A stretch of DNA of 64,000 bases. Origin: Effrenium voratum (Eukaryota; Sar; Dinophyceae; Suessiales; Symbiodiniaceae). Both the position numbers and the translations under genes were made by a program. A model generated the notes under the pieces. The model made no database searches, had not been told where the DNA came from, and was given only the letters and a program-made list of their open reading frames with translations. The stretch covers positions 786,333 through 850,332 of the forward strand of contig CAUJNA010000469.1 in assembly GCA_963377175.1 (NCBI GenBank). Reading direction: 5' to 3'. This document shows, one piece after another, positions 5,503-62,790 of the stretch (positions are counted from its first letter, which is position 1; the number at the start of each line of letters is the position of its first letter).

Positions 5503-6920
5503 TCAATCTGTCCAGCGGCGGAACCATGCGCTCTTGCACGGCCGCGCGCAAACACCGTCGAATTGGATCTCCTCGACTGGAGAGGTTCGGCGGCGGAAGC
5601 CCGAAAGCTGCCGGACGGCGCGCAGCCAGTTTGCCGCCAAATGGGCCACGTGTCCCCGCGCTTTCGGGGACTCCGACGCCTTCCGGGACGGCGTCGGAGT
5701 GGTGGTCGGCTCACTGAAGACACTGGAGAGCTTTGGATCTGACATCTTGGTCTGTGCAGCCCGGAGGGATCGGATCCCTCCGGCCATCTCCAACCAGGAA
5801 AACTCCAAAGCTTCCTCGGCCGTCGGCCTGCTCTCAGGCAGAAAGGCCAGCAACTGCCTCACCAAGTCACAACTGGCTTCGGACTTGCCTACTGCCTTGC
5901 CACAAGGCAGCAGTGGCAGTTGCCCCATCCTTGGTTGCAACGCTCGACCCCTCTGCCCAAAAAAAAGAAGAAGTCTCACTTTTCGTGGCAAAAAAGTTGG
6001 GAAACCCCCAAACGCCTTCCACCAAAAAGTCGGAAGATCCCTTGCCCCCAAACATCAGTTGCCCCCAAAGATCCGTTGGATCCCAAGATCCGTTGCCCAG
6101 TCAAGCATCAGAGTGGCCACCCGGCTTTCGATCGGCGTTTGCCGCTGGAAAGCCGGCGTGCGGAAGAGCAGCAAGTAGAGCACCGCACCGGCGGCAAACA
6201 GATCCGCTGCGAGCCCGCATTGGTTCCTCACGGATGGGCGGGAAAAGGTGATCACCTGTTGGGACCTCGAAAAATAGGGAACCCAACAAGGGAAAGCCAA
6301 AAAGCTGAAAAACAAATCGGCGGTTGATTTGAACTGAGCTTCTCTTGCAGCGCCTCTGGCGATATGTAGCCGTGGCTCCCGCCTTTGGGTGTCACAGTGC
6401 CTTTAAAAATGCTCTGTGACAGTCCCAAATCGCTAAGAACCAGGTTCCCACACCCTGAGATCAAGATGTTGGCCGGCTGGACGTCCCCGTGCAGAATGTA
6501 TCGGCTGTGAAGATGCCGCAGTCCGGAGAAGACCCCCTTCATGACAAACGCGCTCTCGGATTCCGCAAGGCGAACACCCAGAAGCTCGTGAAGTGAGCAG
6601 TCGCATCTCTCCATCAGCAAGGCCCAGCGAGTCGCGCATTCAGCATCTGGCACGCACAAAGGCTCCAGGGGAACTTGAACCAGGCCAAGAGTTCGGATGA
6701 TGTAGGGGCTGCCTGAGGCAGCCCGGAGCATCTCAGCTTCGTGCAAGGCACTGGCTGGTGCCAGCCCTGAGTCTGATTGCTCTTTGTAGATCTTGGCAGC
6801 AAGCATTGTGCCCTGTGGGTCTTGGCAGGCATGGGTCACTGCAAAACCGCCTTTGCCAAGAGCTTCACCAAGCTCAATATCCCCCGCCAACATGCCCTGA
6901 ACGAAGACTTCCTCGCCCAT
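5503..6920 (-). CDS. serine/threonine-type protein kinase, three exons
   Basis: ATG at 6920, with an in-frame TAA two codons upstream. Exon 1 (6920 to ~6345) carries the Gly-rich loop G-K-G-G-F-A-V, the ATP-binding Lys in A-A-K-I-Y, an alpha-C Glu in H-E-A-E-M-L, the catalytic loop H-G-D-V-Q-P-A-N-I-L, the metal site D-L-G and the P+1 motif S-P-E-A. Exon 2 (6255-6097) carries the F-helix segment D-L-F-A-A-G-A-V-L-Y. Exon 3 (5952-5503) carries the C-lobe end, R-P-T-A-E-E-A-L, then a ~100-residue basic Ser/Pro tail and a stop. The total is ~394 aa and all joins are phase 0. Intron 2 appears to be GC-AG; the intron 1 donor is uncertain (GA at 6344 fits phase). The catalytic Asp is kept, but HRD is HGD (a non-RD kinase) and DFG is DLG. 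Confidence 0.8.
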
Positions 6921-7205
6921 GGCTTAAACAATTCCTGCCTCTGCCTGAGGCTTGAGCCGCGACTGCCATGCAGCTGTTGGAATGATTGCAACTGATTGCA
7001 TGAGGAGCGGATGCCTCTGAAATAAATATGCAATGCATGTGTGCGCTTGGGAAGCCAAGCTGCACGGCTTGGATTCCTTGCTATGCACCGCTCGCGGGTT
7101 CCCCAAAGCAACAATCTTGATGTTGATGCCCAACATGGGCTGTTGGTCAGCCACCGACCGTTGCGCGCTGACATCAAGACTTGACAAAAAATAGACACCA
7201 GCTCA

Positions 7206-18320: not shown

Positions 18321-21300
18321 CGCAACAGCCTGTGCATCCCAAGTTGTATCGACACAAAACCGACAACTTATCTGCAGGGAATCCTGTCTTGGAAACAAGC
18401 CAAGTTGGGCACGTCGAACCATCGTTGAATGGAACCTGCGTACCCCCACCTCATAGGGGCATGCGGACTCAATGCACGGCCGCCTCAGCAAAGCCGTAAC
18501 TTGCCACCGGATGCCGACAGCTTGATGGGGGTCTTTGAAAAGCAAGAAATCCCCCACCCCGTTTGCCTTTGTAGCTAAGAAAGATGGGCATGCACAAGGC
18601 TTGCCCAGACCACGTTCTGCATTGCCAGCCGACTTTTGCTGATCAAATGCCAAGGACGGGGTTGCGTGAGAACATTGGAACACTTCACTGGGCATGTGCG
18701 CGAGCTACGGACAGAATTATCTGTTCTTTTCCTTTAGGCACTCCTGCAGTTCTGCTGTACACTGACAGTTCCGGCATGTACATGCATGTTCCAACCTTGA
18801 AAACCCAGCCTTAGCTGCAACCGCAGCCCCTTCTCCACTGCTTCCCAAATGCCATGAGGGCGTGTCTCTGAAGACCCCGTAAGCTGGCCGTGGGATATTG
18901 CAAGCTCTCACCGGGCAGCCAGCATGGCATCCTCCTGGCGCAGCAAGTGGGGACATGGGGTGTGGCACACCCCTCCCTTTGCTTCCGAAAGAAAAAACAA
19001 CATGGCCATGGGTCAAAATCCAAATCTGAAATCCGCCGACAACAGGCGGCGTGTTGGACATAAGAAATGCTCCTTACCTCTTTACCTGTTACCCCTCCCC
19101 TAACCCCTCCCCAGGGGCAGCATTTCAGACTATTGCGGGGGGGGGGGGTCCACGTACCACGCGGTGATTCGAAGACGCTTCACTAAATCTGTTCATTGTG
19201 CGGGCTACATCGCCAGCATCACCTGCATCATCCGCATCAGCGCCTGCCAAGGATGCGGATGATGCAAGTGATGCTGGGGATGTTGCCTATGCTGGTGAAC
19301 CCCCCCCAGTTCCTTGTTGAGATCAGTTATTTCCCCCCTTTCCCTTCTAAGGCCTTTTCCCAGCCTCAGTCCAAAGATCTTTCCCCCCCTTTCCTCCCTA
19401 AGAGTTCGTCTCCCTTTGCCTCCCTAAGATCTCTTCCCCCCTTTCCCGCTTAAGATCCTTGCCCCCGTTTCCCCCCTAAGGCCTTTTCCCCCCAAGATCT
19501 CCACCTTCTCTTCCCAAAGTTTTTTTCTCTCTTTCCCGATTGAGATCCTGTCCCCCGATTGCCCCTTAGGGCCTGTTCCCCCCGAGAAAGATTTCCCTTT
19601 TCCTCCCAAAGATCTTTTCCCCCCTTTCCCCCTTAAGGCATTTTTTCCCCAGATCTTCTCCCTTTCCTCCCTGAGATCTTTCCCCCCCTTTCGCTGTTGA
19701 GATCCTTTCCCCCTTTCCCCCCTTCATTTCCAGATCTTAGGGAGGAAAGGCAGAAGATCTGGGGCAAAAAGGCCTTAGGGGGGAAAGGGGAGAAATGATC
19801 TCAACAGGGCAAGGGGTGGAAAAGATCTTCGGGAGGAAAGGGAGAAGATCTGGGGAAAAAAGGCCAACAGGGAAAGGGGGGAAAAGATCTTAGGAAGGAA
19901 AAGCGAGAAGCTCTCAGGGGGGGAAAGGCCTTGGGAGGGAAAGGGGGGAAAGGATCTCAACAGGGAAAGGGTGGGAAAGATCTTAGGGAGGAAAGGGGGG
20001 GGGGAAGATCTTAGGGAGGAACTCCTAAGATCTTCCCCCCCCTTTCCTCCTTAAGATCTTTCCCACCCTTTCCCTTTCCCTGTTGAGATCCTTTCCCCCC
20101 TTTCCCTCCCAAGGCCTTTCCCCCCCCCCTCTTCTCCCTGTTCCTTCCCCCTAAGATCTTCCCCCCCCTTTCCTCCCTAAGATCTTTCCCACCCTTTCCC
20201 TGTTGAGATCCTTTCCCCCCTTTCCCTCCCAAGGCCTTTCCCCCCCCCCATGAGAGCTTCTCCCTGTTCCTTCCTAAGATCTTTTCCCCCCTTTCCCTGT
20301 TGGGCTTCCCCCCCTAAGTCCTTTTCTCCCAGATCTTCTCCCTTTCCTCCTAAGATCTTCCCCCCCCTTTCCTTCCTAAGATTGTTTCCCCCCTTTCCCT
20401 GTTGAGATCCTTCCCACCCTTTCCCCCTGAGGCCTTCCCCCCCCTGAGAGCTTCTCCTTCCTTAGATCTTTCCCCCCTGTCCCTGTTGGCCTTTTTTCCC
20501 CCAGATCTTCCCCCTTTCCTCCCTAAGATCTTTTCCACCCCTTTCCCTGTTGAGATCATTTCTCCCCTTTCCCCCCTAAGGCCTTTGCCCCCAGATCTTC
20601 TCCCTTTCCTCCCTAAGATCTTTCCCCCCCTTTCCGCTAGGCGAGCGCAGGCAGGCGCAGGAGGGGCAGCGGCACCTGGACGACGTGAGCCGGGTACCCC
20701 AGCTGCGCTACGCGCGGGCCGAGTGCCGGGGCGTGGAATGGACGGCGACGGAGTTGCACAACGGTAAAGAGATGAAGACACTTCGGGCCCACGGCTTCAA
20801 CCAGCGCCCGCGCTTTGAGCAGGTGGTGGGCTACCTTGAGCGGAATGAGCCGCTGCCCCTGGATCAACCGGACCCTGCTCAGATCCTTTCCCCCCTTTCC
20901 CCCCTAAGGCCTTTCCCCCCCTGAGATCTTCTCCCTTTTCCTCCCTAAGATCTTTTGCCATTTTTCCCTGTTGAGATCCATCCCCCCTTTCCCCCCTAAG
21001 GCCCTTTCTCCCTCTGAGTTTTTCCCTTTTCCTCCCCACGATGTTTTCCCCCCTCTCCCTGTTGAGATCCTTTCCCTCCTTTCCCCCCTAAGGCCTTTTT
21101 TCCCCCTGCGATCTTCCCCCTTTTCCTTCCTAAGATCTTTTCCCCCCTTTCCTTGTTGAGATCCTTTCCCGCCCTTTCCCCCCTAAGGCGTTTTCCCCCC
21201 CAAGATCTTCTCCCTTTTCCTCCCTAAGATCCTTTGCCCCCTTTCCCTGTTGAGATCCTTTCCCCCCTTTCCCCCCTAAGGCCTTCCCCCCCCTGAGATC

Positions 21301-24094
21301 TTCTCCCTTGTCCTCCCCAAGATCTTTTCCCCCGAGATCTTCTCCCTTTTCCTCCCTAGGATCTTCTCCCACCTTTCCCTGTTGAGCTCCTTTCCCCCTT
21401 TTCCCCCTAAGGCCTTTTCAGATCTTCTCCCTTTTCCTCCCTAAGATCCTTTGCCCCCTGTCCCTGTTGAGATCCTTTCCCCCTTTCCCCCCTAAGGCCT
21501 TTTCCCTGCCTGGGACCTTCTCCCTTTTTCACTGAGATCTTTCCCCCCCTTTCCCTGTTGAGATCCTTTCCCCTCTTTCCCCCCTACGGCCTTTCCCCCC
21601 GCTGAGATCTTCTTCCTATTCCTCCTTAAGATCCTTTGCCCCCTTTCCCTGTTGAGATCCTTTCCCCCCTTCCCTTTAAGGCCTTTCCAGATCTTCTCCC
21701 TTTCCTTCCTAAGATTGTTTCCCCCCTTTCCCTGTTGAGATCCTTCCCACCCTTTCCCCCCTCAGGCCTTTCCCCCCCCTGAGAGCTTCTCCCTTTTCCT
21801 TCCTTAGGTCTTTCCCCCCTTTCCCTGTTGGCCTTTTTTCTCCCAGATCTTCTCCCTTTCCGCCCTAAGATCTTTTCCACCCCTTTCCCTGTTGAGATCA
21901 TTTCTCCCCTTTCCCCCCTAAGGCCTTTGTCCCCAGATCTTCTCCCTTTCCTCCCTAAGATCTTCCCCCCCCCCGCTGAGATCCTTTTCCCCCTTTCCCC
22001 CCTAAGGCCTTTCCCCCCCCTGAGAGCTTCTCCCTTTTCCTTCCTAAATCTTTTCCCCCCTTTCCCTGTTGGGCTTTCCCCCCTAAGTCCTTTTCTCCCA
22101 GATCTTCTCCCTGAAAGGGAGACGATCTGGGAGATCTTAGGGAGGCAAAGGGAGAAGATCTCAGGGGGGAAAAGGCCTTAGGGGGGAAAGGGGGGAAAGG
22201 ATCTCAACAGGGAGAGGGGTGAAAACATCTTAGGGAGGAAAAGGGGAAAAAACAGAGGGAGAAAAGGCCTTCGGGCGGAAAGGGGGAATGGATCTCAACA
22301 AAGAAAGGGGGGCAAAAATCTCAGAGGGGAAGGGGGCAAGGGGACAATTCCAAAGGGACGCAAATAAGAAAGCAGGCCTGTAATGTCGGCGGCCTGAGCC
22401 GGAGGCACTAAAATAGACTAAAATGGGTGTTGCACCTACCCCAAAATGGTACCATTGGTTTTGACCCACAGCCACCTGACACTATCCATTTCGGGCTTCC
22501 CTGGAATTTTCAGCAACCAAAAGCCGAATACTGGCGGTTACAGGTAACCAGGGGCTTGTCATCAGGCTCTTCCCCAACGCCTTGCCTCCTTGGCAGGGAT
22601 TGTCACTGGCAGCTTCCCTGACGGGTGCACAGCGCCAAACCTGGGCCAGGCAACGCCGCAGCCACAACCCTTGGTACGGCAGCAAAAAACAATCTGTTCT
22701 ACCAGCCCCCTGCCAAAAACGAACAGAACCAACAAACAAACAAAAACAACAACACTTGTCAAGAACAGTCAAGTTGAAAGTGGCACTAGGGACGGAGAGC
22801 ATTGCTGTGGGCCCCAGATGCCTTAGGATTGCCCTCTTGGGACCCATCCCCAAGTGCTTGGCAAGAGATCCGCTGCCGCAAGGCCAGTCGCCTGACCTCG
22901 AGCGGAAGCTGGCACTGGTGCAACTTGCGATTCCTCTCACGCCTCGTTCTCTGTCTGGCGATGGTGGTGATACCCATGCAGAACTTATCAGCTTCCCTAT
23001 GATTGGCGCACTTTGGGATGTAGGATAATCACAGCGGTCAAGCGTCAACCCTTGTTTCGGAAAGCAAACACGAACATAAACTACCGTTGAGTTAATGGTC
23101 TTGCAGAATCAAAACCGCAACACACAACACAAGCTGGCTCTCAAAGCAGGTACACAGCATGGCGTCCCATACCGCGCCACCACGGTCTGACAGCGTCTTC
23201 GTTGGGCAGCGACTGTCAGCCGTGCACTGCCCCCCCTGACTCATGAAATTCAGCGTTGGCGGTGAAGCCTTCCATCCGTGATCTATCATGATCCACACAC
23301 ACACACACCCAAACACACACACACAGACACACAGACACATCAGACACACAGACACACAGACACACAGACACACAGACACACAGACACACAGACACACAGA
23401 CACACAGACACACACAGACACACACACACACACACACAAGCGGACACACAAACACACAAACACACAAACACACAAACACACAAACACACAAACAAACACA
23501 TTGACATACACACAAACACATTGACATACACACACAAACAGTCGAAGAAACACATGCACAACACACAGAGACGCGCAGAAACAAACACAAGAACGTGACA
23601 GGGGCACGAACCAAAGTGACACGCACAAACACACCGACCCAAACGAACATACAAATACAAATGCATACACATATACATGCTTGTTTGTGTACTTGCGCAT
23701 GCTTGCAGACAACAGAGCCCATATGTTCTATGCAAGGCGCATAGCCACGGGCATGGCTAAACGCTTCCAAGTCTGGTCATGTCTGGCAGTGGGCAATGGC
23801 TTCACCCAAAATTTGTTCTTTCAATTCCTGAGTCTCCGCGCCCGAGGGAAACATCAGCAAGATGCCCGTGGCAGCTTGGCCTCAGATTCTTGCGCGCTTT
23901 GCAACCACCTAGGGAGGAAACCAAAAAGTATCCAAAAGCCCTATCTCCCCCTCTCTGTCTGAGAACCTTCTAGGGGATCACATTGTTTTGGACAGCTGGT
24001 TGTGTGTGAATCTGTGTGTCTCTGTGCCTCTCTGTATCTACGTGTGAGTCTCTGCGTCTGTGTCTCTGTGCGTGTGTCTCTGTGTCTGCCTGTC

Positions 24095-38726: not shown

Positions 38727-39339
38727 CTGGCAATGCGGAGGCGGGGGGTGTGGGGCGAAAATGCGTATGCAGAACTGCCAGCCAACCCCCACATCTTGGT
38801 CCAAGAATGAGCCTTGTACAAAAGAAATGGATGGCATGTCGAAAAAGGGAAGGCAAGTGGGTGAAGTGTTCCGCAAGTACCATATACACCAACAGCATCT
38901 CCTGGCATAGGGGGGGTAGGGGGCGAGTGTAGGGTGAGTTTAAGGGCAGGTTGGGGAATGGTTTCGGGTGGGGTTAGGGTTGATGTTCTTCTCCGTGCGG
39001 GCTCACTAAGGTTGGCTTGGGATGCTTTAGGGTGCATTTCTGGGGTGGGTGCTGCGTAAGTTCGGTCTGTAGCACAAAGCGCGGGCTGTTGGCTTGGGCT
39101 TGGTTTTCAGGTGGGTTTCCAGCTGGTGGATTAGGCTGGGTGCCGGACGCAGTCAATGCATGTTTCAAGCAGCCCCAGCCTCCAAGGTCTGGGGTTGGTT
39201 TAGCTTTGAAGGCCGGGCTTCGGCTGGGTTTCGGTTTTTGGCCGTTAGCGCAAAATTCAGAAGCGTTGGAAAGCCAGCCCTGCTAAAAGCACTTACTTCT
39301 TAGGTGGGTTGAATGAACCCACAACCACTAAACCAAAAA

Positions 39340-39968
39340 AAAAACTGTGAGCAGGGGATGTGTCCAGTGGGCTAAGCACTAAACCAACAAACAGAAAACT
39401 GTGAGCAGGGGATCTGTCCACTGGGCTAAGCACTAAACCAACAAAAAAAAAGTGAGCAGGGGATCTGTCCACTGGGCTAAGCACTAAACCAATAAAAAGA
39501 AACTGTGAGCAGGGGATCTGTCCACTGGGCTAAGCACAACCAAAAAAAAACTGTGAGCAGGGGATCTGTCCACTGGGCTAAGCACTGAACCAACAAAAAT
39601 AAACTGTGAGCAGGGGATCTGTCCACTGGGCTAAGCACCAAACCAACAAAAAGAAACTGTGAGCAGGGGATCTGTCCACTGGGCTAAGCACTAAACCAAC
39701 AAACAAAAAACTGTGAGCAGGGGATCTGTCCACTGGGCTAAGCACTAAACCAACAAAAATAATCTGTGAGCAGGGGATCTGTCCACAGGGCTAAGCGCTA
39801 AACCAACAAAAAAACTGTGAGCAGGGGATCTGTCCACTGGGCTAAGCACTAAACCAACAAAAATAATCTGTGAGCAGGGGATCTGTCCACTGGGCTAAGC
39901 ACTAAACCAACAAAAAAACTGTGAGCAGGGGATCTGTCCACTGGGCTAGGCACTAAACCAACAAAAAA
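39340..39968. repeat. 12-copy ~52 bp minisatellite
   Basis: The unit GTGAGCAGGGGATCTGTCCA, then CTGGGCTAAGCACTAAACC and A-rich filler, starts at 39347, 39401, 39452, 39505, 39553, 39606, 39658, 39712, 39764, 39816, 39867 and 39920. Only the A-run length and a few bases vary. The TGTCCACTGGG part resembles the family-E element end. Confidence 0.9.
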
Positions 39969-40127
39969 ACAATGTGGTCGTACAAACTCTCCAAGTTTCT
40001 TGAGTTTGAATCATTGAACCCTCGCACCACGTCCTTCGTCTCGTTGTGGAGCACCATAGGGCCCACCAGGTAGCGACGATCTTGGCATGGCGAAGACACA
40101 TAAAAATTGCGGCACATGGTACGAGAG

Positions 40128-52477: not shown

Positions 52478-54895
52478 TCAGGATCTGCGCTGACTGAGGC
52501 CAGGCACACTCCCCTGCCAAACGTTGGCGATCGGCTGGTCGTTCCACTTCACAACCCACGACGGGTTGTTGTTGACGCCTGGGCACGCCGTTTCAATCGC
52601 GCTTGCCCCACCTGCCCTTGCCAGAGCTTCTATGCATGGAAGCCATCGTGAGGCCAAGGCAAATGCACAGATACAGCTCAACTCCTTGCGACCTTCCGCC
52701 GCATAAGTGAGGCCAGTGACAACCCCTTGCCCACACTTGAAAAAGAACATTTGCCCAAAAATGAACCCTCACTTCCCGAGTTTTGATGGTCCCAAAGAAG
52801 CCTGAACTTGTTGTTGGCCACTAAAATGGCTCAAACCCAAAACATGACTCAAGTCCGGGAAGTCGGGCAAGAAACAGACCACTTGCGGCCGAGCAGCGGA
52901 TGGTGAGGACGTTCTTGCTCAGGAACAGGCCGCCGAAGGCGGCACCCATGGTCACAGAGGGGCTGCGCGGGCCGTAGAGGCCCTGCACCCACATGAAGTT
53001 GGGACTGCCCGGGCAGCTCCTAAGCTCAAGCTTGCCCCTGAACCTGATGAGGGTTTCCCCCCTCTCGGGGTTGAAGAGGTGGTATACTCATCAAGATCCA
53101 CCATTACCAGTCTGGCTCCTTGTGAGGTGACAAGGTCAGCTCAAGCTTTCCATGTGGCCATGAGTCAAAATCCAAATCGTACCCAGTGAACATCCCAATC
53201 CAACCACTAGAATAGACTAAAATGGGTGGTGAATTCACCTACCCCAAAATGGTACCATTGGTGTTGACCCACAGCCATGTAAGTGATTTGTGAACCTCTC
53301 ATCAAGTTCCACCACTACCTTGGGTCTGCTGCTGCTGCTGCTGATGGCTGCTCATGATGCTGCTGATGCTGCTGTCGTGATTTTGGTTGTCGTTGTGCTC
53401 GCTTTAGGTCGGGGATGCCACGAGAAGCAAACAGAGAAGGGCGACTACTTGCCATTGCATCAGCTGAGCATTTCGAGCCTACGCCTAAAACTCGCCCCAG
53501 CTCGTGCGCACTCGATCCTCCTGAATGCTCAACATTGAGAAGTCTTTTTTCAAGAATGGGCCTCCAAATGCCTCCAAGCACGTCCAAGCTCCTAAAGATA
53601 GGCAAGACCATAGGTTCCATTCTTGGTTCAAATGGCCCTGGTAGATTAATAACCAGGTCCATCTATTTTCGACCACTTGGTCGCCGACAAGACCTCTCCG
53701 CAAAACGTGTGTCACTTTCTGTGGGCCCAATGGAAAACCCACCTTCTCCCAAAAGGCCAAAAAATCCAAAGAACCGCGCCCGAACGGCTATGAATTCTAA
53801 TGGGGAATTTTCTGAATAGTGCTTGGTGGACATAAATCCCGACCTAAATGATGTCCACCAAAGGGACCCTAATTGAAACTACCTAAATGATGTCCATCAA
53901 AGGGGCCCCTAATTAACACTCATAGCCAAATAGCCATAGAGAACCAACAAGCAACCTGGCATTGCCAAGTGGCTGCTTGAAGACCCAGTGCGTTCCCGGC
54001 ACCAAGGGATCAGAGCGGCGCCCGCCATCTGAGTCGATTTTGCGGAATTGGTCCCCCAGTTTGCTTCCATTTGCTTTTTGAAGCCCTGGAAAAAGTACAA
54101 ATATTGCCAGTAGTGATAGATTCCCTTTAACACCAACAGGGGAAATATGCAATAAATATGACATGTTCCTAAGTAAATGGAAGTTTGAATTGGTCCCGAA
54201 GCCCCACGAGAAACCAGTCAGCTGATCTCTGCATCCAATCAAACCCCTGATTGTGGCTCTGCCGTTTGCAACTCTCCTGCCTTTGGCCTTACAAATCTGA
54301 GGAATGCTAGTCTTGCCAAATGAGACGTCAACAAATCAAACAAGCTACGCAGTCTGCAAGGCCTAATTAGTATCCTCAAGCTGTAGCCTTGTTAGTTCCA
54401 CTCGCCGGAGGCTCTCACTTTAATCTACAGGTTTCCAAAGTGTGCATCCAGTAGCTTAATGCCTCTCTGCCGCACGCACCTTCCGAAACATGTCATGCCA
54501 ATCCGAGCGAACCATCTAAAAACCTGCGGTCATCATGTTCACCATTTCCATGAAGTTATCAGCGTCAGAATCTGGATAGGCTTCTCTCGAACTGGCCACT
54601 TTAAAAATGACTTTGACACTGGTACCGAACCATCTCACAACCGCTACTTGGGCGCTGTAGATCCCCCAGCAAAAAGTTTAACTGTTTGCTGGCTAAAAGG
54701 AAATATGAGGTGAATCGAAAAAGTTCAAGTCTAAAAATCCAAGCCAACAGCAGTAGAGGCTATTCACCCCCACAACCCCTCGCCGGATTGACTTCGGGGG
54801 CCAAGTGCCAAGGCGTGGCCGAGCCACGGCAGGTGAAGTGCGGATCTCCGGTCCAGCAGTTGTAGAAGTCCCCGCCGATAGGCGGCGGCCCGGTC
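52478..54895 (-). CDS. four phase-matched exons; von Willebrand type D-like (tentative)
   Basis: Exons 54895-54777, 54085-53956, 53043-52883 and 52578-52478 join 1-1, 2-2 and 1-1, with GT donors throughout. Exon 1 has D-F-Y-N-C-W-T-G-D-P-H-F-T-C. GDPHF is the hallmark opening of VWD domains, although the usual F-D-G does not follow. Exon 3 has K-L-E-L-R-S-C, V-Q-G-L-Y-G and S-V-T-M-G-A-A-F-G-G, and exon 4 has W-V-V-K-W-N-D-Q-P-I, all in keeping with the strand pattern of such domains. If so, the product is secreted or surface-bound. The 5' part was not found; a TGA at 52478 may be the true end or lie past a donor. Confidence 0.45.
53151..53281. mobile_element. family-C TIR element
   Basis: Starts CATGTGGCCATGAGTCAAAA and ends GTTGACCCACAGCCATGT, with the same CAGTGAACATCCCAATCC block as 26092. 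Lies in the intron right after exon 53043-52883 on the upstream side. Confidence 0.7.
53828..53925. repeat. GATGTCCACC inverted and direct repeats
   Basis: GGTGGACAT at 53828 is inverted to ATGTCCACC at ~53860. The segment CCTAAATGATGTCCACCAAAGG is then repeated directly ~45 bp on with two changes. Confidence 0.6.
54648..54765. mobile_element. family-D TIR element
   Basis: Starts GGGCGCTGTAGATCCCCCAG, then CAAAAAGTTTAACTG, ending AATCCAAGCCAACAGCAG. Lies in the first intron of the VWD-like gene, ~12 bp from the exon 54777 border. Confidence 0.65.
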
Positions 54896-54984
54896 CTTGG
54901 GGGGCGGGATTATTTTTCCCCAACAGCTGAAAGCTTTGGGGTCTCAGCTCAGGTAGGCTCCGGGGTGGTCTGGGGCGGCCCTGA

Positions 54985-55615
54985 CATAAGGTTCCACGAG
55001 GGTTCCACCAGGGTTCCACGACGGTTCCACCAGGGTTCTGCAAGGTAAGGTTCCACGAAGGTTCCACCACCAGGGTTTTAGCAGGGTTCCACGAGGTTCT
55101 TCGAGGGCTTTGAGGTAAGGTTCCACGAGGGTCTGTTTGCGGCCACAAGGGTTCCACGAGGGTTCCACCAGGTTCTGCTAGGTAAGGTTCCATGAAGGTT
55201 CTACCAGGAGGGCTGCGGGGTGGTCCGGGGTGGTTTGGGGTAAGGTTCCACGAGGGTCTGTTTGCGGGGCACCAGGTTGTTCCATGAAGGTTCCACCACC
55301 ACCGTTCTAGCAGGGTTCCACCAGGTTGTTCAAGGGCTGCGGGGTGGTCCGGGGTGGTTCGACCACGAGGGTCTGTTTGCGGTGCACGAGACAAGGGTTC
55401 CGCGAGGCTTTCACCCATTTGAACCAGGGTTGCACCAGGTTCTGCAAGGTAAGGTTCCATGAAGGTCCCAGAAAACAGAGGTAGGGTTCCATGAGGGTTC
55501 AGGGTTCCACGAGGGCTGTGGGACGGTCCGGGCGGCCCTGACATCTGCAAGAATTCCGCAAGAGTTTCACAAGGCTCCACAAGTTCCACGAGGGTTCCAG
55601 AAATGTTCTGCAAGG
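54985..55615. repeat. GGTTCCACGAGGGTTCCACC minisatellite
   Basis: Units of ~17 bp (GGTTCCACGAGG, GGTTCCACCAGG, GTTCTGCAAGGTAAG) and a longer unit containing GGGCTGCGGGGTGGTCCGGG. Diverged units continue at 55915-56070. It sits upstream of the VWD-like exons. Confidence 0.85.
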
Positions 55616-55631
55616 TTCCGTGGTTTGCCCT

Positions 55632-55767
55632 GAGGCAAGCAGTGTGTCGCGCGCCCGCCGTCTGAAAAGCCATCCGAGCAGAAAATTGAGGGCTCAGAAG
55701 CTCGCCTTGCTCATGGGCGGAACACAAAGCAAAACCGAATTCAGTGGATTTCAGCAATCTTTCACTG
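55632..55767 (-). CDS. candidate exon upstream of the VWD-like gene
   Basis: Frame L-L-K-S-T-E-F-G-F-A-L-C-S-A-H-E-Q-G, then F-Q-T-A-G-A-R-H-T-A-C-L-R, lying between an AAAG acceptor and the edge of the GTTCCACGAGG minisatellite (GC donor possible). The minisatellite itself is open in the same frame, but its low-complexity translation is not believable protein. Confidence 0.35.
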
Positions 55768-56454
55768 TTTTGTCACTTGCTCACTTGCTCAGGCAACGCG
55801 GCCCGAAATGTTGGCTTTGTGGCAAATCAAATCACGTTGCTGCGGGACTCACGGTGCAGCAGAGTACATGCTTGGCATTGCTGAGTATTACTTGGTGGGC
55901 TTTGGGTTTCAAGAATTCCACGAGGCTGCAAGGGCTGTGGGGTAAGGTTCCAAAACCGCTTCCACCAGGTTCTGCAAAAGCTATGGGGCAGCCCTGAGGA
56001 AAGGCCCCAACAAAGTTTCACGCTGAGTTCCACGAGATTTCACGAGGACGGTTTGCGAGGTTCACCGGGCCCGCCCCGATTGCACCGATCGGGTTTATAA
56101 AGTTACAAGGCGGCATCCTAGCAACACCGGCGGTGAGGTGAATTCCGGGGCGTTCCGCGAGGATTCTGGGAGGGTGTGGTGCTGTTGGGGATATCGCCTG
56201 AGCTTTTTTCTTTTTTTTTGGGGGGGGGGATTTGTTCTTCATTTTTCTTTTTTTTTTGGGGGGGGGGGGGGGAATTTTGGAGGGGGTGGGGGGGGGGGGA
56301 TTGTTGGGGTTGCACTCGAAGGCTTTTGTGGGGAGATCCTGGCAAAAACCCGGGGTGGTGCACAGAAAAACGGGTCTGGGCACTGCCGTACTTTGTCAAC
56401 AAACCGGTTGCAACAGGCAGATTGCACTTTCACCAAAGTTCAAAGCTACGGGCT

Positions 56455-59899: not shown

Positions 59900-62790
59900 T
59901 CAAAGCATTTCCTGAATGAGGGCGATGGAGCATCCAGTGCAGGCCGCGTCGTACTGCCAGACCATGGAGCCTTCGTACTTGCAATGGTCCGCGCAAGTGG
60001 GTGTGGCCGCAATTGCGGTGGCGGGCATGGAAGCAGCGCAATCCTTGCAGCCCGGATCATAGCCCATAATGGCGGCACCCTCATACTTGCAATGGTCAGC
60101 GCAGCCGGTGGTTGATCCGCTCGTGGTCTGAAGAAGCGCCATTTTCTGCACCAGAGCAGGGGAACAGCCTTTGCAGGAAGGATCGTACTGCCAGACCTGG
60201 CAGGGTTTGCTTGCATACTGTCGCATGCCTGTCAAGAAATCACATCCGAACATCCAAAACAAGTTTCGTTCAGAACTCTTGCGCCTGCGACCCCTCGTAC
60301 TGGCAGTGGTCCTCGCAAGATCCCGATGCCATCGGAGCAGCCCCCAGCGGATCGGGAGTGCAATCCGAACAAGCCGAGTCGTACTTCCAAACCGCGACAC
60401 CCTCATACTGGCCTAAGCTGCGTCAGTCTCCGTCCAATGGCAACCCATCCAAATTGGCAGAAAGCAAATCATGCGCTACCAACATACCGCGACGATATAC
60501 CAACAGACCGCGACAACCGTATATAAGTAGCATCATGAAAAACATGGCGTTGCTGGATAGCCAAGTTGCAGTGGTCTGCGCATCCGGTGGATGCTTTGGA
60601 GTTAGACCCACTGGATGCCGTTTGCAACAGCATTTCCTGCACGAGGGCGACGGAGCATCCCGTGCACTCGCCGTCGTACTGCCAGACCATGGAGCCTTCG
60701 TACTTGCAATGGCCCGCGCAAGTGGGCGTGGCCGCAATTGCGGTGGCGGGCATGGAAGCAGCGCAATCCTTGCAGCCCGGATCATAGCCCATAATGGCGG
60801 CACCCTCATACTTGCAATGGTCAGCGCAGCCGGTGGTTGATCCGCTCGTGGTCTGAAGAAGCGCCATTTTCTGCACCAGAGCAGGGGAACAGCCTTTGCA
60901 GGAAGGATCGTACTGCCACACCTGACAGGGTTTGCTTGCATACTGTCGCATGCCTGTCAAGAAATCACATCCGAACATCCAAAACAAGTTTCGTTCAGAA
61001 CTCTTGAGTCTTGCGCCTGCGACCCCTCGTACTGGCAGTGGTCCTCGCAAGATCCCGATGCCATCGGAGCAGCCCCCAGCGGATCGGGAGTGCAATCCGA
61101 ACAAGCCGAGTCGTACTTCCAAACCGCGACACCCTCATACTGGCCTAAGCTGCGTCAGTCTCCGTCCAATGGCAACCAATCCGAATTGGCAGAAAGCAAG
61201 CCATGCGCTACCAACATACCGCGACGATGTACCAACAGACCGCGACAACCGTAAGTAGCATCATGAAAAATAAAGGCGTTGCTGGATAGCCAAGTTGCAG
61301 TGGTCTGCGCATCCGGTGGATGCTTTGGAGTTAGACCCACTGGATGCCGTTTGCAACAGCATTTCCTGCACGAGGGCGACGGAGCATCCCGTGCACTCGC
61401 CGTCGTACTGCCAAACCAGGGAGCCTTCGTACTTGCAATGGTCCGCGCAAGTGGGCGTGGCCGCAATTGCGGTGGCGGGCATGGAAGCAGCGCAATCCTT
61501 GCAGCCCGGATCATAGCCCATAATGGCGGCACCCTCATACTTGCAATGGTCAGCGCAGCCGGTGGCTGATCCGCTCGTGGTCTGAAGCAGCGCCATTTTC
61601 TGCACCAGAGCAGGGGAACAGCCTTTGCAAGCATTGTCGTACTGCCAAATCTGGGCCCCTTCGTACTTGCAATGGTCTGCGCAGGTGGCGGTTTTGCTGG
61701 TGGGGCTGCTGGCTACGCAGCCCTGGCAGTCCGCGTCGTACTGCCACACCGCCGCACCCTCAAACTTGCAATGATCCGCGCAGCCAGTGCTTACTGCCCT
61801 GGGCGCGGGCTGCAAGGGCTGAGTTACGAATTACAACCTGCTGGTATGGCTTTCCTTGGTTTCATGCATGACACACACACACACAAACTTCGTGAATAGC
61901 AAGGGTGCACTGTGCAAACAGCTGATTTCCACATGCATCTGTATATGTACATATATACGCATACAAAGTTGCGCATGCATAGTATGCATACATACACGGC
62001 CACATCTCAAACCTAAACCAGCATCTAAGATTCCGTACGCACCATCACGCAAAGGACCCTACCCAAACCCGGAAAAAGAACGGGGTGCGCTCGCTGAAGC
62101 AAAGCGATGCTTTGGGCGACACCCTCTGAATTTCCCAAGCCTTGCAATGGATCCGGCAGTGTGGCCACAAGTTGGGGGTACAAGCGGCTAGTCCGTCCAG
62201 AAAGGCATCTAGCAGCCAGGCCGAAAAGCCCAACATCGCTGAAAAGGCTATGTATTTTCACTGCCGAAAGCACGCAGCCTTGACCCGAGTTGCCTAGCAA
62301 TCCTGGAAGAACAAGAGTTGCAGTACATTTCACCACTTGGAGCTGGACCAAAATTGGCTTTCAGGCTTATCCGCACTAAATGTTTTTTGGACATCATTTT
62401 CACTTGGAGCTGTTCCAAAGTTGGCTTTCAGGCTTATCCGCACAAAATGTTTTTTGGACATCATTTCACTTGGAGCTGTTCCAAAGCTGGCTTTCAGGGA
62501 CATCTGCACAATATGTTTTTTGGACATCATTTCACCACTTGGAGCTGGACCAAAGTTGGCTTTCAGGGTTATCCGCACAAGAACGGGAAAAATCCTTTCC
62601 ACAACTTGGAGCTGGACCAAAGTGGGCCTGGGCCGGGCAGTTCGCAAAACACGCCTTCCGCGCCGGGGCGCTGCTTGGAGGCCTTGAACTGCAGGAGCTC
62701 TACCGCGGGCTCGTCGCACAAGACCTCCAAGGCCTCCTCTGCCAGCACGGCGGAGGAAGCCACCAGGGAGACCAGCACGAGGCGCGCCAT
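59900..62790 (-). CDS. complete gene: secreted protein of twelve four-cysteine modules (~517 aa)
   Basis: Six exons: 62790-62653, 61809-61299, 61144-61017, 60921-60570, 60412-60285, 60196-59900 (TGA). Lengths 138+511+128+352+128+297 = 1554 nt, all joins in phase. The N-terminus M-A-R-L-V-L-V-S-L-V-A-S-S-A-V-L-A is a signal peptide. Then twelve modules follow: C-[AE]-[DG]-H-C-[KQ]-[YF]-E-G-x3-[WM]-x-Y-D-x2-C-x-[GD]-C, ~40 residues apart with Ala/Ser/Thr or L-V-Q-K/E-M-L linkers, giving 48 Cys. Intron 1 is GT-AG (843 bp); the other four are GC-AG (154, 95, 157, 88 bp) and two cut inside a module, so only splicing restores the pattern. The start could instead be an in-frame ATG at 62871. I know no named family; a wall, scale or matrix role is only a guess. 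Confidence 0.8.
59918..61640. repeat. three tandem ~725-729 bp gene-internal repeats
   Basis: Landmarks recur at 59918/60643/61372 and at 60547/61276, i.e. every 725-729 bp. Copies are nearly identical in exons and introns. One intron differs by a 7 bp tandem duplication (95 versus 88 bp) and the other is 154 versus 157 bp. Each full repeat unit carries four cysteine modules, so the gene grew by duplication of a whole exon-intron block. The third copy (highest coordinate) diverges upstream of ~61640. Confidence 0.9.
62325..62610. repeat. ~67 bp tandem repeat in intron 1 of the module gene
   Basis: The unit ACTTGGAGCTGGACCAAAG, then TTGGCTTTCAGG, ATCCGCACAA and TTTTTTGGACATCATTT, recurs about every 67 bp, four to five times. 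Each unit carries CTTTCAGG on plus, absent as an acceptor on minus. Confidence 0.8.

Follow-up and report, generated by a model that had tools for sequence, protein, structure and literature searches.

A predicted split gene for a probably secreted protein of twelve four-cysteine modules

What kind of protein, if any, is encoded by the cysteine-rich repeats on the minus strand of the window, the whole 64-kb stretch of DNA that was analyzed? An earlier note on this DNA had read them as six exons joining in phase into 517 codons, with a signal peptide and twelve modules that carry 48 cysteines. Our analysis of the sequence likewise predicts a split gene on the minus strand for a probably secreted protein of twelve four-cysteine units, and a check of the raw sequence places it at positions 62790 to 59900, as a signal-peptide exon and five downstream exons:

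62628..62790, minus strand: exon 1, with the ATG at 62790, the predicted signal peptide MARLVLVSLVASSAVLA and an ELLQ-containing stretch; 3' end uncertain
61810..62627, minus strand: intron 1, both ends approximate; includes a tandem array (67 bp x 3.7) at 62334-62580
61299..61809, minus strand: exon 2, modules 1 to 4 and the first part of module 5
61145..61298, minus strand: intron 2, 154 nt, GC...AG, cutting module 5 within the second Cys codon
61017..61144, minus strand: exon 3, the remainder of module 5 and the first half of module 6
60922..61016, minus strand: intron 3, 95 nt, GC...AG, cutting module 6
60570..60921, minus strand: exon 4, the remainder of module 6, modules 7 and 8, and the start of module 9
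60413..60569, minus strand: intron 4, 157 nt, GC...AG, cutting module 9; 92% identity to intron 2
60285..60412, minus strand: exon 5, the remainder of module 9 and the first half of module 10; identical to exon 3
60197..60284, minus strand: intron 5, 88 nt, GC...AG, cutting module 10; 99% identity to intron 3 over 85 nt
59900..60196, minus strand: exon 6, the remainder of module 10, modules 11 and 12, and the stop TGA

Internal introns and the first junction

All four internal introns run from GC to AG, with a G right after the acceptor. In modules 5 and 9, the intron lies inside the second Cys codon (CACT/GC...AG/GCCAGTATGAG, with slashes at the splice sites), and the one in modules 6 and 10 separates SQ from VW (TCGCAG/GC...CAG/GT). 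Joining the GC...AG ends yields CADHCQYEGVAVWKYDSACSDC and CEDHCQYEGSQVWQYDPSCKGC, in register with the intact modules, and restores the spacing in four out of four split modules; because modules 9 and 10 are copies of modules 5 and 6, this counts as two independent cases. The spliced frame from 61830 to the stop at 59900 comprises 478 residues and contains, between exon 2 and the stop, all of the twelve modules and 48 cysteines of the earlier note. Retention of intron 2 or intron 3 leads to an early in-frame stop. The GC...AG/G style of these introns is the one reported for Symbiodinium, where the available text of PMC4083563 describes GC and GA donors beside GT and an acceptor AG that is often followed by G. 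The G+C content of the window (52.65%) falls inside the bounds of 45 to 60% outside of which, according to the available text of a Symbiodinium study, scaffolds of >100 kb were dropped as putative contaminants (PMC8045281). The intron style and the homologues described below both suggest that the DNA is from a dinoflagellate close to Symbiodiniaceae. The dinoflagellate spliced leader had no match in the window (21 bases, with ≤3 mismatches), which carries little weight either way; Rfam gave no window match at the gathering score, and introns 2 to 5 have no extra copies within the window apart from the duplication described below.

Module 1 follows an in-frame stop without an intervening Met, which calls for an exon upstream, and from the ATG at 62790 the protein start reads MARLVLVSLVASSAVLA followed by EE. 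Where this exon joins exon 2 is ambiguous: scanning ranges on both sides for GT, GC, and GA donors and AG acceptors, we found 89 in-frame pairs for intron 1, which give 469 to 538 codons, and exon 2 acceptors with in-frame partners lie at 61818, 61809, 61798, 61793, and 61789. Thus, introns 2 to 5 bear out the phased exons of the earlier note by restoring the modules, but intron 1 is not fixed, and the proposed 517 codons result from 2 of the 89 joins. A CAG/GC donor at 62628, just ahead of the start of the 67-bp tandem array, resembles the donors of introns 3 and 5 and, paired with the acceptor at 61793, gives 520 codons. Because a partial copy of the array runs on beyond 62580 toward 62627, reaching the probable end of exon 1, we place this end probably at or before 62628. 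After the signal peptide, VELLQFK resembles TELLQVK at about the equal position in two homologues introduced below (P0003 and P0005). The N-terminal match is weak when the signal peptide is left out, its score being reached by 43, 44, 64, 251, and 25 of 500 shuffles for P0003, P0005, P0004, P0001, and P0002, respectively; with the signal peptide included, the corresponding counts are 10, 152, 174, 70, and 9 of 500, in a comparison that took in P0001 to P0005.

Elsewhere in the window, (i) a 223-aa open frame at 6255-6923 on the minus strand matches the protein kinase domain (Pfam PF00069, E 1.2e-26); (ii) long C-rich arrays of the TTTCCCCCCTAAGATC type occupy 19916-22321, with G-rich, reverse-complement-like copies on both flanks, and the GC skew at 20001-22000 is -0.52; (iii) a 53-bp unit is repeated in tandem about 12 times, with 91% matches, at 39326-39969; and (iv) the longest open frame of the window (54696-55772, minus strand, 359 aa from stop to stop) has no Pfam match at E 0.01 and overlaps a GGTTCCACGAG-type repeat at 54990-55359.

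Duplication of the module array and selection on its frame

The module is 22 residues long, has the spacing C-x3-C-x13-C-x2-C, and occurs in 12 copies from exon 2 to the stop. Eight of these are contiguous in the DNA, within three exons, and they are the sole strict matches to this spacing in the six-frame translation of the window; 20 mononucleotide shuffles of the window gave zero strict matches. The aromatic positions of the module are conserved (H/Y/W before the second Cys, Y/F, W, and Y). Its linkers are rich in Ser/Thr/Ala/Pro and differ in length and sequence, and the linker after every second module contains a short hydrophobic S-x-A-L-V-Q stretch. Part of the array was built by a 725/729-bp tandem duplication that includes introns, which shows how module copies get added. 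The duplicated unit holds four modules (exons 3 and 4, 480 nt, 160 codons) and would have arisen by unequal crossing-over or slippage. Since modules 3/7/11, 5/9, and 6/10 are identical in protein, 8 of the 12 modules are distinct.

Among modules 1 to 6, 145 of 291 differences fall at third codon positions. Nine of the 15 module pairs allowed dS to be estimated, with dN of 0.15 to 0.27, dS of 1.0 to 3.2, and dN/dS of 0.08 to 0.21; for the remaining six pairs (dN 0.18 to 0.34) the program gave no dS, which we take as saturation. The reading frame is under selection, and we therefore regard long plus-strand frames such as 60070-60840 as shadows of the minus-strand gene. The same data bear on whether there is a functional gene here at all, as opposed to a decaying or spuriously joined repeat. 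The many options for the first junction count in favor of the latter, but the low dN/dS across modules, the splice sites that restore modules, and the homologues with identical spacing speak against it, and we consider it very improbable.

Homologues, conservation, and searches against known families

Three protein searches retrieved seven homologues (P0001 to P0007), with 22 complete modules of identical Cys spacing. A search with 178 residues found P0001 and P0002, and one with 478 residues found P0003; a profile search gave five relatives at E values of 1e-46 to 4e-30 and a weak one at 4.5e-3, recovering P0001 and P0002 again. In this profile search, P0004 (E 2.8e-44) is an unnamed protein from Symbiodinium pilosum and P0005 (E 7.7e-43) an unnamed protein from Durusdinium trenchii, P0006 has an E value of 3.9e-30, and P0007 (E 4.5e-3) is a weak fragment, apparently out of frame past its first module. 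Symbiodinium and Durusdinium trenchii both belong to Symbiodiniaceae, and our best reading of these seven proteins, the two with organism names both being from this group, is that the family is probably lineage-restricted. The recovered homologue sequences, some of them incomplete, contain between 1 and 6 complete modules, compared to 12 in the window protein; besides the 22 complete modules, P0005 has one that is too short in the C2-C3 interval, and three C-x3-C pairs are truncated at the end of a protein. The six modules of P0003 can be read uninterrupted from a 1,318-base contig, which we take as hinting that it may come from a spliced transcript. It also has an extra Cys-rich C-terminal tail (residues 290-341), which has no Pfam or PDB match and is absent from the window protein. 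Linkers of some homologues carry S-x-A-L-[VI]-Q. Judged by hydrophobicity alone, the N-terminus typical of signal peptides, as the earlier note had recognized it in the window protein, recurs in four of the seven homologues (P0001, P0003, P0004, and P0005); P0002, P0006, and P0007 have no hydrophobic N-terminal segment and may be incomplete.

The module consensus reads C-x3-C-x-[YF]-x-G-x3-W-x-Y-D-x2-C-x2-C, and its Cys spacing is found in 12 of 12 window modules and in the 22 homologue modules (family P0001 to P0006). Over 29 distinct modules, 8 from the window and 21 from homologues, G9, W13, and D16 are each present in 26 (G9 and W13 being each missing in 3), Y15 in 24, Y7 in 22, and E8 in 21, while every one of the 29 has H, Y, or W at position 4, with Tyr or Trp replacing His in 10. 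Hence, the Y-E-G residues once described as strict are somewhat relaxed in the family. All 29 modules have four cysteines by construction of the spacing search; a Cys-free anchor, picked after the modules were known, gave 35 sites in 8 proteins, 34 of them with all four cysteines, while at the one remaining site the end of P0006 truncates the module. As the module is conserved beyond the window gene, we take the finding to be real, and its presence in unnamed proteins from algae that live as coral symbionts makes it look like a genuine, if uncharacterized, protein domain.

In Pfam and NCBIfam, the window protein and the seven homologues all stayed below the curated cut-offs: the best window matches were UDPG_MGDP_dh_C (18.6 bits compared to a cut-off of 30) and PRK13475.1 (16.5 compared to 489), and the best match of a homologue was Meleagrin/Cygnin for P0004 (19.5 compared to 25, E 0.00088). 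For 287 residues of the window protein, the best PHROGs match was an unconvincing one to phrog_961 (E 0.0049), and a PDB sequence search returned nothing. The sub-threshold Pfam, NCBIfam, and PHROGs matches were rejected as short and below cut-offs. A profile-derived scan of viral contigs hit 39 stretches, of which tblastn confirmed zero as relatives; in the viral collection, a DNA pattern for W-Q-Y-D-P-x-C-x2-C hit five loci, none with a full module and four with a stop inside the match; and in prokaryote genomes, 64 stretches matched, with zero relatives. The motif strings WQYDP, VWQYD, HCKYEG, YCKYEG, HCQYEG, and IWQYD occur in no openly available paper searched, and titles and abstract openings on dinoflagellate or Symbiodinium cysteine-rich or repeat proteins revealed no such protein among the matches listed, so that, as far as these literature searches go, it is not yet in print. 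These results agree with the view that no named domain has this pattern, and the profile search against proteins found relatives, none of which places the module inside a known family. "Undescribed" fits the domain, within these searches, but less so the proteins, as members are already in databases as unnamed predicted Symbiodiniaceae proteins.

Two alternatives for the module itself can be weighed at this point. In one, it would be a metal-binding knuckle with four Cys ligands, comparable to a zinc or iron site, in a protein that would store or buffer metal. The paired cysteines, C-x3-C and C-x2-C, speak for such a site, and the profile matched eight PDB chains at E 0.022 or worse, seven of the eight listed being half-module matches to the start of the [NiFe] hydrogenase small subunit. 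However, this match spans 24 of 238 profile positions with an E value above the default threshold, and we rejected it as chance; position 4 often loses its His, no metalloprotein family reached its cut-off, and the signal peptide would place the cysteines in an oxidizing compartment, all of which makes a metal site improbable. In the other, the module would serve as a small binding unit for carbohydrate in the cellulosic cell covering, with W and Y as a sugar-stacking face. Dinoflagellates have cellulosic walls, and the well-conserved W13 and Y15 stand beside two putative disulfides, but no carbohydrate-binding family was matched and aromatic conservation may instead reflect core packing; we regard this idea as improbable.

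The AlphaFold2 models, from inputs of 10 and 14 sequences, have a mean pLDDT of 58.2 for two modules and 66.5 for one module. Both show a helix over C1-C2 with low pLDDT, and the single-module model adds another in the linker past C4, with none over C3-C4. The models gave no confident fold and are too weak to name one. The stand-alone fold that the earlier note proposed to look for in a single module did not emerge from them.

Possible function and comparison with named systems

The window protein, taken as 471 residues from 61809, has a pI of 4.57, with 50 acidic versus 23 basic residues, about 10% Cys, no basic pair, and no N-glycosylation sequon. It ends nine residues past module 12, which would leave no room for a membrane segment or a GPI-anchor signal. 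With somewhat better than even confidence, we propose a lineage-restricted, secreted, disulfide-stapled repeat protein that serves outside the cell as a multivalent binder or as part of the matrix. Such a protein would be soluble, acidic, and probably secreted, with each module most likely closed by two disulfides in the oxidizing secretory pathway. The intact chain would then work through multivalency, its many weak, alike modules binding or cross-linking an extracellular partner—candidates being cell wall polysaccharide, mucilage, and a host or prey surface—and the module number could be adjusted by unequal crossing-over. More tentatively, we envisage a so far unnamed extracellular domain that is specific to dinoflagellates and forms a mini-fold with two disulfides and a fixed W-x-Y-D signature; its copy number would be tuned by unequal crossing-over, in a multivalent surface or matrix protein that may serve symbiont-host or cell-wall interactions.

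Alternatively, the chain could be a precursor (polyprotein) whose linkers are cleaved to release cysteine-rich peptides of one or two modules, as in plant alpha-hairpinin precursors or dinoflagellate polyproteins. We think this unlikely, although it should be given some weight, as modular alpha-hairpinin precursors share the layout in the available description (PMC11591084), dinoflagellates are reported to express polyproteins (PMC11453091), and [LVI][LVI]Q is repeated in the linkers of the window protein and of five of the seven homologues. In the window protein, this motif occurs 11 times compared to 0.26 per shuffle, with 0 of 2,000 shuffles reaching 11, a contrast that the duplication inflates; for P0001, P0002, P0003, P0004, and P0005, the observed count was reached in 1, 5, 6, 54, and 54 of 2,000 shuffles, respectively. 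The motif, which in the window protein and P0001 to P0005 recurs after the signal peptide as well as in linkers, could be a processing or sorting signal or mere helix packing. Against a precursor stand the zero basic pairs in 471 residues, the absence of [LVI][LVI]Q from P0006 and P0007, and the variable length and sequence of the linkers. Moreover, the eight distinct window modules are acidic (net charge of -1 to -3), unlike typical antimicrobial peptides, which are cationic.

In the available text of two studies, about half or more of the predicted dinoflagellate genes have no functional annotation (PMC11453091), and >90% of Symbiodinium core genes are reported as "dark" (PMC8045281). One such family now has a testable definition, consisting of a 22-residue module whose motif is sharp enough to model as a domain, a gene model, and representatives in two or more genera. 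Should it be secreted in coral symbionts, the protein would be a candidate constituent of the surface or matrix, with a very small disulfide fold that has yet to be studied.

Among named systems, the modular alpha-hairpinin precursors of plants resemble the window protein in layout: they begin with a signal peptide, carry up to 12 four-Cys modules in a cassette, and have a short C-terminus (PMC11591084, available text). The window gene likewise combines a signal peptide and a module cassette in one precursor, as judged by hydrophobicity and with a junction that is not pinned. The alpha-hairpinin definition, C1-x3-C2-xn-C3-x3-C4 (PMC7191063 and PMC11591084, as far as available), has the C-x3-C that is also the first half of the window module. 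However, the motif C-x3-C-x(4-20)-C-x3-C has zero matches in the window protein and the seven homologues, where C-x3-C is followed by C-x2-C in 12 of 12 complete window pairs and in 23 homologue module pairs. In the accessible part of PMC11591084, the cysteines are reported as the sole conserved residues of alpha-hairpinins, in contrast to the strong W/Y/D/G conservation of the window family. Finally, the alpha-hairpinin fold is a helix-loop-helix with Cys1-Cys4 and Cys2-Cys3 bonds; the models place a helix over C1-C2, and the single-module model, at a pLDDT too low to decide either way, places none over C3-C4.

The broader class of secreted cysteine-rich repeat peptides (SCREPs), described in the available text of PMC6262176 as having a tandem Cys-rich domain and high-avidity binding, is defined by architecture, not homology. 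The window protein shares this architecture, with its signal peptide, 10% Cys, and 12 tandem copies, secretion being suggested by the N-terminus; the likeness is architectural, and high-avidity receptor binding is a SCREP trait. The SCRiPs of reef corals resemble the window protein, for which secretion is predicted, in being secreted, Cys-rich, sometimes acidic, and taxon-restricted. According to the available text of PMC2652719, they have one Cys-rich domain and products of 41 to 48 residues, and almost all have a potential proprotein convertase site. Their single C-terminal Cys-rich domain in a short preproprotein differs from twelve modules over 478 residues, and their convertase sites contrast with a chain that has no basic pairs in 471 residues, a comparison made at the level of architecture. 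What is new here is an unnamed domain; the kind of protein that carries it, the secreted cysteine-rich tandem repeat protein, is already known.
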